From Ensifer adhaerens (lineage in GTDB: Bacteria; Pseudomonadota; Alphaproteobacteria; Rhizobiales; Rhizobiaceae), in the NCBI RefSeq assembly GCF_002940685.1, contig NZ_PNFP01000008.1:124001-188000 (forward strand): a stretch of DNA of 64,000 nt. The letters are read 5' to 3'. A program made the position numbers and the translations under genes. The notes under the pieces were generated by a model, which made no database searches, had not been told where the DNA came from, and saw nothing but the letters and a program-made list of their open reading frames with translations. Positions within the stretch are counted from its first letter, which is position 1. Each line of letters starts with the position of its first letter. Shown here piece after piece: positions 3,321 to 24,716 of this stretch.

Positions 3321-3408
3321 TTGCCCGCATCCGTCGTTCCGCGCGGCGCGGTGAAATGCGCTAAGCTGTCCCACCGGAGCATCGACATGCATGAGGGGAG
3401 GATGATTG

Positions 3409-3945
3409 ATGAGCGACGATCTACCCGTGCAAAGCTATCGCTTGATGCTGCTGCGCCATGCCAAGTCGGCGTGGCCGGACGGCGTCGCCGACATCGACCG
3501 TCCGCTTGGCGAGCGTGGCCGCAAGGCGGCGCCGCTGATGGGGGACTATATGGCGCGGCACAAGCTGGTGCCGGATCTCGCCCTCGTCTCGACGGCCAAG
3601 CGGGCGCAAGAGACCTGGAAACTGGTGGCGGCCGCCCTGCCGTCGGGCATCGTGGTCGAAAACACCCGCTCGATCTACGAGGTGGGCGCCTCCCAGATCC
3701 TCAGCGTCCTTCGCGCAACCGATCCGGCTGTCGGGACGTTGCTGATCGTCGGCCACAATCCCGGCATGGAGGACCTGGCGCACGAGCTCGTCGGCTCCGG
3801 CGATCCGGACCTGCGCATGCGCATGGCGGACAAGTTTCCGACGGCCGCCCTTGCCGTTCTTGAATTCGAAGCTGCGGGCTGGCGCGCGCTCCTTTCCGGC
3901 GGGGCCAGGCTCGTGCGTTTCGTGACGCCGCGTTCGCGCGATTGA
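3409..3945 (+). CDS. SixA-like histidine phosphatase family protein
   Basis: 178-aa member of the histidine phosphatase superfamily, phosphohistidine phosphatase SixA group. The catalytic RHAKS motif sits at residues 16-20 (H17), and the second-half VGHNPGMEDLA motif carries the distal histidine. Substrate is not predictable; SixA acts on phospho-His proteins. ATG 3409 is chosen over the in-frame TTG at 3406 because the purine-rich ribosome site GAGGGGAGGA ends 6 bases before it. It stands alone after the leuC terminator and converges on the transpeptidase-like gene with an 18-base gap. Confidence 0.85.
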   Translation: MSDDLPVQSYRLMLLRHAKSAWPDGVADIDRPLGERGRKAAPLMGDYMARHKLVPDLALVSTAKRAQETWKLVAAALPSGIVVENTRSIYEVGASQILSVLRATDPAVGTLLIVGHNPGMEDLAHELVGSGDPDLRMRMADKFPTAALAVLEFEAAGWRALLSGGARLVRFVTPRSRD

Positions 3946-3963
3946 GCCATCCGGACGCCGGGA

Positions 3964-4563
3964 TCAAAGCACCTTAACGACCGTGCCGCGGCGCATGTGC
4001 GGGATCAGCCGGCGCATGGACGCAAGGCTGACGGCGACGCAGCCCTGCGTCGGCTCATAGCCCGGGCGGATCAGGTGGAAGAAGATGGCCGAGCCGGCGT
4101 TTCGTCGCCGGGCGAGGAGATTCCAGTCCATGACGAGGCAGATGTCGTAGAGGGCATCGTCGCGGATCATCTCCTCATGGCTCGGCTTGAAAGGGGCTTC
4201 GGCCGGTCGGTTGTAGAGGGCGTGGCCTGACGCGTCGCACCAGAGCATGCCCTTGCGCGTCGCGCGTGTCGGAAGCGGCGTTTTCGGCAGAAGGAGCCGG
4301 TCGCGCCTGACATAGCCGCCGATCAGCCTCATCGCGGCGCGTGGGGTCGCGCCGTCGCCCTCGCGCTTCCGGCTGGTGATGCCGCTGCGTCCGATCGCCG
4401 CCTGCTCGACCCGACCGTCGAAAGAGACGAGGGCGCGTTTGCGATCGCGCGGTGCGGCGCGCACGGTGATGACGGTTTTGGCTGGTCTTCTTCCCGACGT
4501 TTTCTTACGCATCATTCTCACGGATTTTTGCTTTGCCCGTGATTTGGGGGGCACCATAAGCAC
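3964..4563 (-). CDS. L,D-transpeptidase (YkuD-fold) family protein
   Basis: The C-terminal half carries the YkuD signature, seen as FFHLIRPGYEPTQGCVAVS with the catalytic Cys in GCVAV and an upstream His, so the product is likely a peptidoglycan-active or related acyl-transfer enzyme. The family normally acts in the periplasm, yet the N-terminus is strongly basic (KSRAKQKSVRMMRKK) and shows no clear signal peptide. The start is uncertain: ATG at 4563 or 4557, or the ATG pair at 4515/4512. A TTATAT box near 4571-4576 (minus strand) would place transcription start close to the upstream ATGs and so favours the later ones. Function beyond the fold is inference. Confidence 0.78.
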   Translation of the reverse strand: MLMVPPKSRAKQKSVRMMRKKTSGRRPAKTVITVRAAPRDRKRALVSFDGRVEQAAIGRSGITSRKREGDGATPRAAMRLIGGYVRRDRLLLPKTPLPTRATRKGMLWCDASGHALYNRPAEAPFKPSHEEMIRDDALYDICLVMDWNLLARRRNAGSAIFFHLIRPGYEPTQGCVAVSLASMRRLIPHMRRGTVVKVL

Positions 4564-4655
4564 GGTTGCAGATATAACGACTTAGCGATGCTGGCTCGCT
4601 TGCCAACACGGGCATTTGAGCTAGTTTGAAAACGGAAGCAAACAGGAATTGTCCC

Positions 4656-21779: not shown

Positions 21780-22964
21780 TCAGCGCGATAGTTGTTTGGT
21801 GGCGTCCTGGAGACCGGCAAGGGTCAGAGGGAACATCCGCCCCTCGAACAGGCTTTTCACCATGGCGATCGACTGGGTGTAGCCCCAATGCTGCTCCGGC
21901 ACGGGATTGATCCAGATCGAGCGCGGAAAATGCGCCGTCAAGCGCGAGAGCCAGAGGGCGCCGGCCTCGTCGTTCCAATGCTCGACCGAGCCGCCGGGAT
22001 GGCTGATCTCGTAGGGGCTCATCGAGGCGTCGCCGACGAAGATGGCGCGGTAGTCGCCGCCATAGGTGCGCAGCACCTCTGTCGTGCGGGTGATGTCGGC
22101 GCGCCGGCGGCGATTGTCCTTCCACAGGCCCTCGTAGACGCAATTGTGGAAGTAGAAGTGCTCCATGTGGCGGAACTCGCCGCGGGCGGCGGAAAACAGT
22201 TCCTCGACGATGCGGATGTGGTCGTCCATCGAGCCGCCGACGTCAAAGAACATCAGGAGCTTCACGGCATTGCGCCGCTCCGGCCTCGTCACCACGTCGA
22301 GATAGCCGTGTTCGGCGGTGGCGCGGATCGTGCCGTTGAGGTCGAGTTCGTCGGCGGCACCCTGGCGCACCCAGCGCCGCAATCTTTTCAGCGCCACCTT
22401 GATGTTGCGGGTGCCAAGCTCGACCGTGTCGTCATAATCCTTGAACTCGCGCCGGTCCCAGACCTTGACGGCGCGGCGATGGCGCGACTGGTCCTGGCCG
22501 ATCCGGACCCCCTCGGGATTGTAGCCATAGGCACCAAAGGGGGAGGTGCCGGCGGTGCCGATCCATTTCGAGCCGCCCTGATGGCGGCCCTTTTGTTCAC
22601 TCAGCCGCTGGCGCAAGGTCTCCATCAGCTTGTCGAAGCCGCCGAGGGATTCGATCAGGCGCTTTTCTTCCTCGGTCAGGTGCTTTTCCGCAAGCTTGCG
22701 CAGCCAGTCCTCAGGGATGACCGCCTCTTCGCCCGCTTCCATCGGGTTGACCGCTTCGAGGCCGGAAAAGCAGTGCTGGAACACCCGGTCGAAGCGGTCG
22801 ATATGGCGCTCGTCCTTCACCAGCGCCGCGCGCGCCAGATAGTAGAAGGCTTCGACGTCGAAGGTGGCGATGCCGGCCTCCATCCCCTCGATCAAGGAGA
22901 GGAATTCCCGGAGGGTGACCGGGACTTTCGCCGCCTTGAGTTCGAGGAAGAAGGGGATGAACAT
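21780..22964 (-). CDS. VWA-domain (CoxE-like) protein
   Basis: 394-aa protein with an N-terminal helical half and a C-terminal von Willebrand A domain (about 225-390). The metal-ion site is visible as LLMFFDVGGSMDDH (DxGxS), followed later by the threonine/aspartate region and FVGDASMSPYE. CoxE-type proteins partner MoxR/CoxD AAA ATPases, and one is encoded at 24713-25552. The start is six bases after the metA stop, with its GAGG site overlapping that stop, so it is translationally coupled to metA and should share the SAM-II riboswitch. The target of the pair is unknown. Confidence 0.9.
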   Translation of the reverse strand: MFIPFFLELKAAKVPVTLREFLSLIEGMEAGIATFDVEAFYYLARAALVKDERHIDRFDRVFQHCFSGLEAVNPMEAGEEAVIPEDWLRKLAEKHLTEEEKRLIESLGGFDKLMETLRQRLSEQKGRHQGGSKWIGTAGTSPFGAYGYNPEGVRIGQDQSRHRRAVKVWDRREFKDYDDTVELGTRNIKVALKRLRRWVRQGAADELDLNGTIRATAEHGYLDVVTRPERRNAVKLLMFFDVGGSMDDHIRIVEELFSAARGEFRHMEHFYFHNCVYEGLWKDNRRRRADITRTTEVLRTYGGDYRAIFVGDASMSPYEISHPGGSVEHWNDEAGALWLSRLTAHFPRSIWINPVPEQHWGYTQSIAMVKSLFEGRMFPLTLAGLQDATKQLSR

Positions 22965-22970
22965 CTGACC

Positions 22971-23897
22971 TCAGCTTTTCCCGGTGCCGATCTCCTGGAG
23001 ATCATAGGGCGTCGTCTGGTACATCTCGTTGATCCAGTTGCCGAAGAACAGATGTGCATGGCTGCGCCAGCGGTTCTGCGGCGGCAGGGTCGAATCGTTG
23101 TGCGGGAAATAGTCGTGCGGCATCTTGATCGGCACGCCGGCGTCCACGTCCCGGAAATATTCGTCCGACAGCGAAGTGGAATCATACTCCACGTGGTTGA
23201 ACATGTAGAGCCTGTTGCCCTTTTTCTCGTGCACGAGGCAGACGCCCATCTCCTTCGATTCCATCAGGATTTCGAGGCCCGGCACCTTGTCGATGTCGGC
23301 GCGTCGCACTTCGGTCCAGCGCGAAACGGGGACGGCGAAATCGTCGGAGAAGCCGTTGAGATAGACGGAGGAGCGATTGAGGTTCTGGTGACGATAGACG
23401 CCGAAGGCCTTTTCCTTCAGCGGATACTTCGGCACGTCGTGGAAGTGGTAGATCGCCGCCATCGCGCCCCAGCAGACGTTGAGCGTCGAATGGACGTTGG
23501 TCTCGGTCCAGTCGAGGATGCGCTTCAGCTCGTCCCAATAGGTGACGTCCTCGTATTCGAGCGTCTCGACCGGGGCGCCTGTGATGATGAAGCCGTCGAA
23601 CTTGCGGGCGCTGACCTCTTCCCAGGTCTCGTAGAAGGAAAGCAGATGGTCTTCGGAGGTGTTCTTTGCGCGGTGGGCGCCGATGCGCACCAGCGACAGT
23701 TCCACCTGCAGTGGCGAAGCGCCGATCAGGCGCGCCATCTGGATCTCGGTCTTGATCTTGTTCGGCATGAGGTTGAGGAGCCCGATCTGGAGCGGACGGA
23801 TATCCTGACGGATCGCCACGGTCTCGGTCATCACCCGCACGCCCTCATTGACGAGGGTTTCGAAGGCGGGCAGCGTATCGGGAATCTTGATGGGCAT
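22971..23897 (-). CDS. metA: Homoserine O-acyltransferase
   Basis: 308-aa MetA family enzyme that acylates homoserine in methionine synthesis. It carries [16 protein letters not shown] at the start, the catalytic cysteine in [14 protein letters not shown] (about C142) and the His-Glu pair in [10 protein letters not shown]. MetA proteins of this type in alphaproteobacteria may use acetyl-CoA rather than succinyl-CoA; the sequence alone does not decide. ATG 23897 follows a GGAAG site. It is controlled by the SAM-II riboswitch and attenuator upstream and is followed directly by the VWA gene. Confidence 0.96.
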
Positions 23898-23918
23898 GGG
23901 CTTCCACTCGATCAATAC

Positions 23919-23950
23919 AAAAAAACCGGCGGCGATTGATCGCGACCGGT
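23919..23950 (-). terminator. Attenuator hairpin between the SAM-II riboswitch and metA
   Basis: On the minus strand ACCGG and GCGA arms fold into a stem-loop, followed by seven T residues (A run at 23919-23925), only 22 bases before the metA ATG. It lies downstream of the riboswitch and upstream of the start codon, as an expression platform should. Confidence 0.8.
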
Positions 23951-23972
23951 CCTCGGAAATCCAACTTTCCTC

Positions 23973-24030
23973 GGCCCTTTAGCGACTTGTTTAACGTGGC
24001 TGCAAGCCGGCCGGCCAAATCACCACGGGG
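23973..24030 (-). ncRNA. SAM-II riboswitch (metA leader)
   Basis: The conserved SAM-II core is read on the minus strand: GTGGTGATTTG, then TTGCAGCCACGTTAAAC, then AAGTCGCTAAAG followed by GGGCC, able to form the P1 stem and H-type pseudoknot. This class is known upstream of metA and metX in alphaproteobacteria. Confidence 0.95.
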
Positions 24031-24088
24031 AATTTGATAGCGCGACAGGGGCGCGGGGGTCAAGAAAAACGATTCGGGCGTGGGGAGG

Positions 24089-24285
24089 CCCCTCATCCCG
24101 CTGCCGCGACCTTCTCCCCGCAAGCAGGGAGAAGGGGCCTTGCCGTACCCGATCGTTCCACAAGTCAAGGGCAGCGGCCGTTCGGCCTATCTTGGTAGCC
24201 GGGTTCGCTATCCGCACGTCTCGGCTTGGAGCCAGCCGTCGTCTTGCCCTCTCCCCGCCTGCGGGGAGAGGGTTAGGGTGAGGGG
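24089..24285. repeat. RIME-type intergenic mosaic repeat, copy 2 (inverted)
   Basis: Left palindrome CCTTCTCCCCGC / GCAGGGAGAAGG and right palindrome CCCTCTCCCCGC / GCGGGGAGAGGG, ending TTAGGGTGAGGGG. Orientation is opposite to copies 1 and 3. Its right end overlaps the 3' end of the NUDIX gene. Confidence 0.9.
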
Positions 24286-24716
24286 CTAGTCTGCAGCAGG
24301 CTTAGAGCATCCCGCATGCCATAACCCAGCCGGTGCCGCGCCCCGTCTATCCCAAGCCAGAAGAAGCGAAAGCGGATCGGGTCACCGCCGCCAAAGGGCG
24401 TCATTTCCCGATGTATCCAGGTCTGCCGCTGCTCGCCGGCAAGGGCGATGTGGAAGTAGTGCCGCCGATGACAGATCGTCCTGCCGTCCTTCGGGTAGTG
24501 GTAGTCATGCGTGACGAGATGGGTGAGCGCCTGCGGCGACGTCAGTCCGGTCTCTTCGGTGAATTCCCGCGCGGCCGCCTGCTCCGGGCTCTCGCCGGGC
24601 TCCATCGTGCCGCCGGGTACCTGCAGCTCGATCGCGGGAAAATCCGGCTCGTCGAAGACCAGCAGGCGGCCCTGCCAAGTGGCGTAGATCAGGACCTTGT
24701 GGGCGTCGGGCATCAT
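24273..24716 (-). CDS. NUDIX hydrolase
   Basis: 147-aa NUDIX protein with a complete box, GGTMEPGESPEQAAAREFTE followed by ETGL (about residues 34-57). Substrate is unknown. ATG overlaps the stop of the MoxR gene by four bases (ATGA), so the two are translationally coupled. The last codons (Ser-Pro-Ser-Pro) and the TAA stop lie in the end of RIME copy 2, so the native C-terminus appears to have been changed by the repeat. Confidence 0.9.
   Translation of the reverse strand: MMPDAHKVLIYATWQGRLLVFDEPDFPAIELQVPGGTMEPGESPEQAAAREFTEETGLTSPQALTHLVTHDYHYPKDGRTICHRRHYFHIALAGEQRQTWIHREMTPFGGGDPIRFRFFWLGIDGARHRLGYGMRDALSLLQTSPSP

Follow-up and report, generated by a model that had tools for sequence, protein, structure and literature searches.

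A SAM-II-led metA gene closely followed by a CoxE-like VWA gene in Ensifer adhaerens, and recurrence of the gene pair in related bacteria

The metA locus and its SAM-II leader

The window, i.e., the whole stretch of 64,000 nucleotides of Ensifer adhaerens DNA that was analyzed, carries on its minus strand a SAM-II leader, the metA gene and, closely following it, a gene for a VWA protein (Table 1). This observation, made in a preliminary description of the locus, was confirmed, and the pairing of the two genes proved to be real and to recur widely in the family. The VWA gene is followed on the same strand by a gene assigned by Pfam to an aldose epimerase. Upstream of the leader, again on the same strand as metA, lie genes for an AAA ATPase and a Nudix hydrolase, neither of which had been mentioned in the preliminary description; the Nudix gene is a variable neighbor, which some of the related loci lack.

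Table 1 Features of the metA locus, with positions in the window
Feature	Position	Strand	Evidence and details
AAA ATPase gene	25552-24713	-	Pfam AAA, 53.4 bits; AAA_5, 50.4 bits
Nudix hydrolase gene	24716-24273	-	Pfam NUDIX, 57.5 bits; 4-nt overlap with the ATPase stop
metA promoter (probable)	24063-24034	-	-35 TTGACC 24063-24058, 18-nt spacer, -10 TATCAA 24039-24034
SAM-II aptamer	24036-23959	-	RF00521, 85.9 bits; GAGG 23972-23969 in the 3' tail
Intrinsic-terminator-like hairpin and T7 run	23950-23919	-	Fold and sequence; hairpin 23950-23925, seven T 23925-23919
metA, homoserine O-acyltransferase, 308 aa	23897-22971	-	Pfam HTS, 432.8 bits; stop TGA 22973-22971
Ribosome site GAGG and ATG of the VWA gene	22972-22962	-	Sequence; GAGG 22972-22969, six-base gap 22970-22965
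CoxE-like VWA protein gene, 394 aa	22964-21780	-	Pfam PF05762 VWA_CoxE, 38.1 bits

The metA gene of the window shares 96-99% identity with its counterparts in Ensifer adhaerens L18, Ensifer sp. LC11, Ensifer sp. Root278, and E. sesbaniae. Its match to the NCBIfam model for acetyl-type MetA (NF047918) reached 480 bits with a cut-off of 460.5, pointing to a product that is probably an acetyl-type homoserine O-acyltransferase; it stayed under the NCBIfam cut-off for the succinyl type. Two intergenic stretches of the locus contain repeats. The one from the Nudix gene to the metA promoter (24080-24290) has G/C-rich palindromic repeats, which we take to resemble rhizobial intergenic mosaic elements, and the gap between the VWA and epimerase genes contains a long, near-perfect inverted repeat (approximately 21706-21665) without a T-run, the fold z-score for 21779-21640 being -3.68.

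A covariance search with RF00521 bore out the SAM-II riboswitch that had been placed upstream of metA (gathering score 36, E value 5.2e-18). A P1 stem can be formed by CGUGGU with GCCACG, according to the covariance alignment, and a P2 pseudoknot, found by eye, by CGGCC of the loop with GGCCG of the tail. The genome has a second SAM-II copy, located 5' of a gene for a Cys/Met PLP enzyme that is probably metZ. The promoter motif preceding the aptamer of metA is the single match across 26000-21001 of the minus strand; a TTGAC/T - TA motif was found 5' of the aptamer in 50 of the 51 tightly spaced loci with SAM-II, and 100 of 150 leaders matched a stricter version of the promoter motif (duplicates included in both counts).

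Between the aptamer and the metA ATG lies a hairpin followed by seven T, so the T-run attenuator claimed earlier is present as an element; that it senses SAM is less safe, the corresponding terminator of S. meliloti being predicted, in the available part of the report on it, to be SAM independent (PMC9373788). The leader stretch as a whole folded no better than its shuffles (z-score -0.92; 39 of 200 as good), and a generic scan for promoters and terminators listed neither the hairpin nor the metA promoter. We nevertheless accept the hairpin, because 126 of the 145 distinct leaders from relatives contain a terminator-like element, taken here as a hairpin with an energy of -9 kcal/mol or better and no fewer than five T in the eight bases after it, and because the S. 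meliloti element has been put to the test (PMC9373788).

SAM-II has been described 5' of metA, with P1 immediately preceded by a promoter and P2 often followed by a terminator (PMC1273637), and the window shares P1, P2, the promoter, the terminator, and metA with the leaders of Agrobacterium and other alpha-proteobacteria presented there. The available sections of that paper name only methionine and SAM genes downstream of SAM-II and, unlike the window, no VWA gene in that position. For the S. meliloti metA leader, studied with reporters, the sections available report a terminator between AUG1 and AUG2 that strongly limits metA, most transcripts ending before the gene, and translation from AUG2 that needs a GAGG in the aptamer tail, AUG1 being present and unused (PMC9373788). 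Control was assigned there to the Shine-Dalgarno sequence in the aptamer tail, mRNA stability, and the promoter, while the terminator was predicted to be unaffected by SAM binding and the effect on termination was left open (PMC9373788). The aptamer class, the tail GAGG, and a terminator before the start codon are common to that leader and the window, and the distance from GAGG to the start is also close, about 72 nt here versus the 74 reported (PMC9373788). AUG1, in contrast, is absent from the window, where a TTG stands, out of frame with metA. In the leader of S. meliloti 4H41 (L238) a hand count gave a run of seven T, which leaves the first ATG out of frame; eight T would bring it in frame. 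The window leader is, by these sequence features, of a known kind, like that of S. meliloti metA, and its aptamer is predicted to bind SAM and lower metA expression.

Of the 145 distinct leaders from relatives, 39 carry a GAGG in the aptamer tail, and only 2 of 43 leaders with GAGG (duplicates included) had an in-frame start 3-14 nt past it. These counts indicate that the start conserved among the leaders is the downstream ATG and that only some members of the family have the tail GAGG, and they bear on a question left by the available part of the S. meliloti study, namely, how widespread such distant initiation is (PMC9373788).

In L148 (genome G351, metA turned to the plus strand), SAM-II cores were found at 3354-3384 and 4550-4580, with metA at 3501-4421, the second core thus being 3' of metA and 5' of a metZ-like gene; L149 (G274), which has the same genus code, carries a metZ-like gene 3' of metA without a second core. 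In L159 (G205, also turned), two cores lie in tandem 5' of metA (3336-3366 and 3414-3444), with an N at their junction, so that the tandem may be an assembly artifact.

At the other end of metA, the VWA gene was found to start six bases past the metA stop, with a ribosome site lying across that stop, both exactly as described before. A Shine-Dalgarno-like site precedes the VWA gene in 45 of 53 tightly spaced loci of relatives, overlapping metA in 44 of them, and was missing by the rule used in the other 8 (duplicates included). Because its ribosome site spans the metA stop, translation of the VWA gene is probably tied to that of metA. The metA-VWA gaps of relatives start at -1, the stop and the start overlapping by one base in S. 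fredii USDA 205, S. americanum, and Ensifer sp. BR816, and pass through 2-3 nt in R. tropici and its neighbors upwards. In L107 and in L272, metA and the VWA gene are separated by a GNAT-cluster gene, identified by Pfam in L107, that overlaps each neighbor or lies a few bases from it.

Linkage of metA and the VWA gene among relatives

We then determined how often the two genes stand together in other genomes. Among 161 genomes of the family, 103 were found to have metA and 98 to have VWA orthologs, a few of them partial; this tally leaves out G254 and G305 (2 of 100), which hold weak paralogs only, as well as second, weak matches. Both genes were present in 68 genomes, metA only in 35, the VWA gene only in 30, and neither in 28, so that the presence of one was not associated with that of the other (Fisher p 0.093). 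In 38 of the 68 genomes (the window's included), metA lies upstream of the VWA gene on the same strand and no more than 8 kb away; the two genes of the remaining 30 are further apart on one contig in ten cases and on different contigs in 20. Some of these unlinked genomes are cut at the place in question, the VWA gene starting at a contig end in G202 and G223 and no sequence preceding metA in L105.

Spacing was determined on distinct loci, from which 5 of 157 metA loci had been dropped since their metA was identical to another. The window itself stands outside the relatives' counts of gaps, leaders, and motifs; 40 of 65 unlinked metA loci and 40 of 60 unlinked VWA loci were fetched. The 84 distinct linked loci of relatives (family and named loci together) had a gap of at most 25 nt in 51 cases, at most 60 nt in 54, and over 60 nt in 30, the genes found in between including one for a GNAT acetyltransferase and a Phd/Fic-type pair.

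The pair extends beyond the family. In a sample of 199 genomes of the order, with a threshold of 350 bits or more for metA, 21 had both genes, and in 11 of these (the window's included), belonging to five families, metA precedes the VWA gene on the same strand at a distance of no more than about 10 kb. The remaining ten comprise one with the genes 20 kb apart on opposite strands and nine with the genes on different contigs. Among the ten linked order-level loci from four other families, the ATPase gene precedes metA on the same strand in 8, and the intervening genes encode His_Phos_1, YcjX-like, and DUF697 proteins (Pfam on one genome, L300).

The SAM-II leader does not accompany the arrangement everywhere. 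A motif search found its core in none of the ten linked order-level loci outside the window's family, and an Rfam scan of five of them (L289, L290, L293, L294, and L295) gave no SAM-II match. Five linked loci (L097, L098, L099, L107, and L110) were without SAM-II by both motif and Rfam and, on that account, SAM control is not tied to the gene arrangement. In three of the latter (L097, L098, and L099), the ATPase gene, metA, and the VWA gene form a single packed run without a riboswitch, with the ends of the ATPase and metA matches 52-57 nt apart and the VWA gene 8-27 nt past the metA stop.

A tree built from 91 VWA sequences requires at least 13 changes among the three linkage states and, for tight spacing versus the rest, no fewer than 9, well-supported branches forcing 5 of the latter; the tree is a quick one in which two long branches meet, so its details are unsure. 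Read on this tree, linkage is mostly inherited, and tight spacing has been gained and lost repeatedly.

The VWA protein and the AAA ATPase

The CoxE-like character ascribed earlier to the VWA protein held, its match to PF05762, over residues 188-276, exceeding the gathering score of 26.4. The canonical MIDAS motif is given as DxSxS-T-D in the available part of a study of such proteins (PMC9976466), and our comparison covered its DxSxS part. The window protein has DVGGS instead, and D-x-G-G-S was found in all 126 VWA sequences of relatives (duplicates included); canonical MIDAS binding should therefore not be assumed.

The ATPase surpassed the Pfam cut-offs for AAA and AAA_5, while its match to AAA_3 (PF07726), which we take to be the MoxR model, was 21 bits, under the cut-off of 27; its best NCBIfam match was to MadB_ATPase, with 126.7 bits versus the 475 of the model. 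The protein can thus be called "MoxR-like" solely through its pairing with the VWA protein. A sequence search of the PDB with the VWA profile gave no match and one with the ATPase only midasins, over short stretches; the predicted VWA structure (pLDDT 51.5) was too poor for a structure search. A role in defense was considered and dropped, since PADLOC gave no match for the VWA protein and only weak ones, of 33 bits or less, for the ATPase.

The distribution of the ATPase gene follows that of the VWA gene. It was found in all 98 family genomes with a VWA gene. The only two that have it without one are G273, in which the gene is divided between contig ends, and G305, which is 68% complete. Within the sequence fetched around 37 linked family loci, it precedes metA on the same strand in 30. 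Among 80 named loci, the VWA gene follows metA in 50, and the other 30 have neither the ATPase nor the VWA gene in the stretch and keep SAM-II, metA, and the epimerase gene, the simplest reading of the sequences being that the two were lost jointly. Neither gene lies beside metA in S. meliloti 4H41 (L238), unlike in the window, and whole-genome searches of that strain, R. leguminosarum USDA 2370, and Ensifer sp. LCM 4579 for the ATPase found distant relatives only. In two loci without metA, the ATPase and VWA genes are 12 nt apart by match ends. Judged by these distributions, the ATPase and VWA genes are a pair belonging together, with metA as the gene between them, and the ATPase is probably the partner of the VWA protein, a partnership in function that we infer from their company. 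In Ensifer sp. BR816 (L228), the ATPase gene lies some 40 kb upstream, if the contigs match, and the VWA gene still adjoins metA; the distance may mark an inserted element.

A small AAA ATPase together with a co-occurring VWA protein is also what characterizes the MoxR AAA+/VWA pairs NorQ/NorD, CbbQ/CbbO, and RavA/ViaA. CoxD/CoxE is a further pair of this type. The window differs from them in the subthreshold AAA_3 match of its ATPase, in the D-x-G-G-S of its VWA protein, and in the methionine gene, led by a riboswitch, that stands between the two genes. The ATPase and the VWA protein probably constitute a protein-remodeling machine. MoxR-kind pairs are presented, in the available part of the source, as helpers of specific enzymes, NorQ and NorD assisting one enzyme, nitric oxide reductase, from within its own operon (PMC9976466).

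Control of the VWA gene and its possible use

Since the VWA gene lies close behind metA not only in the window but also in many related species, the two are probably switched together. We consider it likely, on the layout of the sequence, that metA and the VWA gene are transcribed as a single unit from the promoter directly 5' of the SAM-II aptamer, and that SAM would lower expression of the VWA gene and not that of the ATPase gene. As in S. meliloti, the hairpin that follows the aptamer would probably stop most transcripts, and those reading through it would give the metA-VWA mRNA. At high SAM, the promoter would probably be weaker, and SAM bound to the aptamer would hide the GAGG in its tail, lessening metA translation from the distant ATG; translation of the VWA gene, probably coupled to that of metA, would fall with it. 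The ATPase gene is encoded upstream of the riboswitch and would be outside its control, for which reason SAM would shift the ratio of VWA protein to ATPase. The interpretation offered in the preliminary description, that the methionine level also sets the level of the VWA protein, is as a whole partly supported, and coupled control of the VWA gene with metA, likely in view of the gene layout, gains from the conservation of short gaps (51 of the 84) and of one-base overlaps (three loci).

Coupling of this kind may serve no purpose. Under this alternative, the position of metA between the ATPase and VWA genes is an old one, its spacing has varied in both directions, and co-expression is a by-product; as it concerns usefulness, it is compatible with the transcription unit proposed above, and we judge its chances to be evenly balanced. 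It is favored by the order ATPase-metA-VWA in 8 of 10 linked loci from four other families with other genes in between, by the independent presence of metA and the VWA gene in the family, and by the 30 named loci in which the SAM-II-metA-epimerase part persists alone. Against it speak the at least 9 changes of tight spacing on the VWA tree and the fact that tight pairs mostly keep a spacing of the coupling type.

Rather unlikely, in our estimate, is that the VWA gene has a promoter of its own inside metA, in which case the two genes would be neighbors and the effect of SAM on the VWA gene would be small. The TTGAC/T - TA motif was absent from the 250 nt before the VWA gene in all 53 tightly spaced loci (duplicates included). 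This absence carries no weight, because the motif is likewise missing from 48 of the 50 VWA loci that have no metA in their neighborhood (2 with the motif; shuffled mean 0.35); the VWA gene is apparently driven there by promoters or operons that the motif misses, and such a promoter could also sit in the 3' end of metA. The generic scan did list a weak promoter-like site inside metA, at 23209-23181 and about 220 nt before the VWA gene, with 9 of 12 matches, such sites numbering 2 in the region versus 0.6 in its shuffles. Moreover, if most transcripts stop before metA, as the available part of the S. meliloti report has it (PMC9373788), VWA expression would be low without a separate promoter. 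What tells against one is the recurrence of tight spacing, mostly with the Shine-Dalgarno-like site lying across the end of metA, in numerous loci whose spacers differ.

That the ATPase and the VWA protein are a remodeling machine with MetA as its client, as NorQ-NorD are for nitric oxide reductase, would suit both the helper role of MoxR-kind pairs and the position of metA between the two genes, up to the packed riboswitch-free runs of three loci, but a MetA-specific role is very improbable, because metA and the VWA gene occur independently of each other (35 of 103 metA genomes have no VWA gene and 30 of 98 VWA genomes no metA match) and the ATPase and VWA genes adjoin without metA in two loci. 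Equally far-fetched is the wider form, in which the pair would remodel MetA or the methionine pathway and SAM-II would tune the client and the VWA adaptor, the ATPase being made independently. If true, it would mean that SAM sets how much of the ATPase-VWA machine is armed and, to our knowledge, would provide the first riboswitch governing half of an AAA/VWA pair.

The preferred reading, a metA-VWA unit behind SAM-II, would bring a gene of a different type into SAM-II units, and the response of the VWA gene to methionine would give a handle on the question of which client an AAA/VWA pair serves. The preliminary description knew of no account of such a link, and none between a metA SAM-II and a VWA gene was found in the literature searched, one library of open papers. 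A riboswitch of another class was seen near one of the compact ATPase-metA-VWA runs, where L099 has, at 836-945 of the minus strand, a match to the TPP riboswitch of 60.1 versus 54.3 bits.
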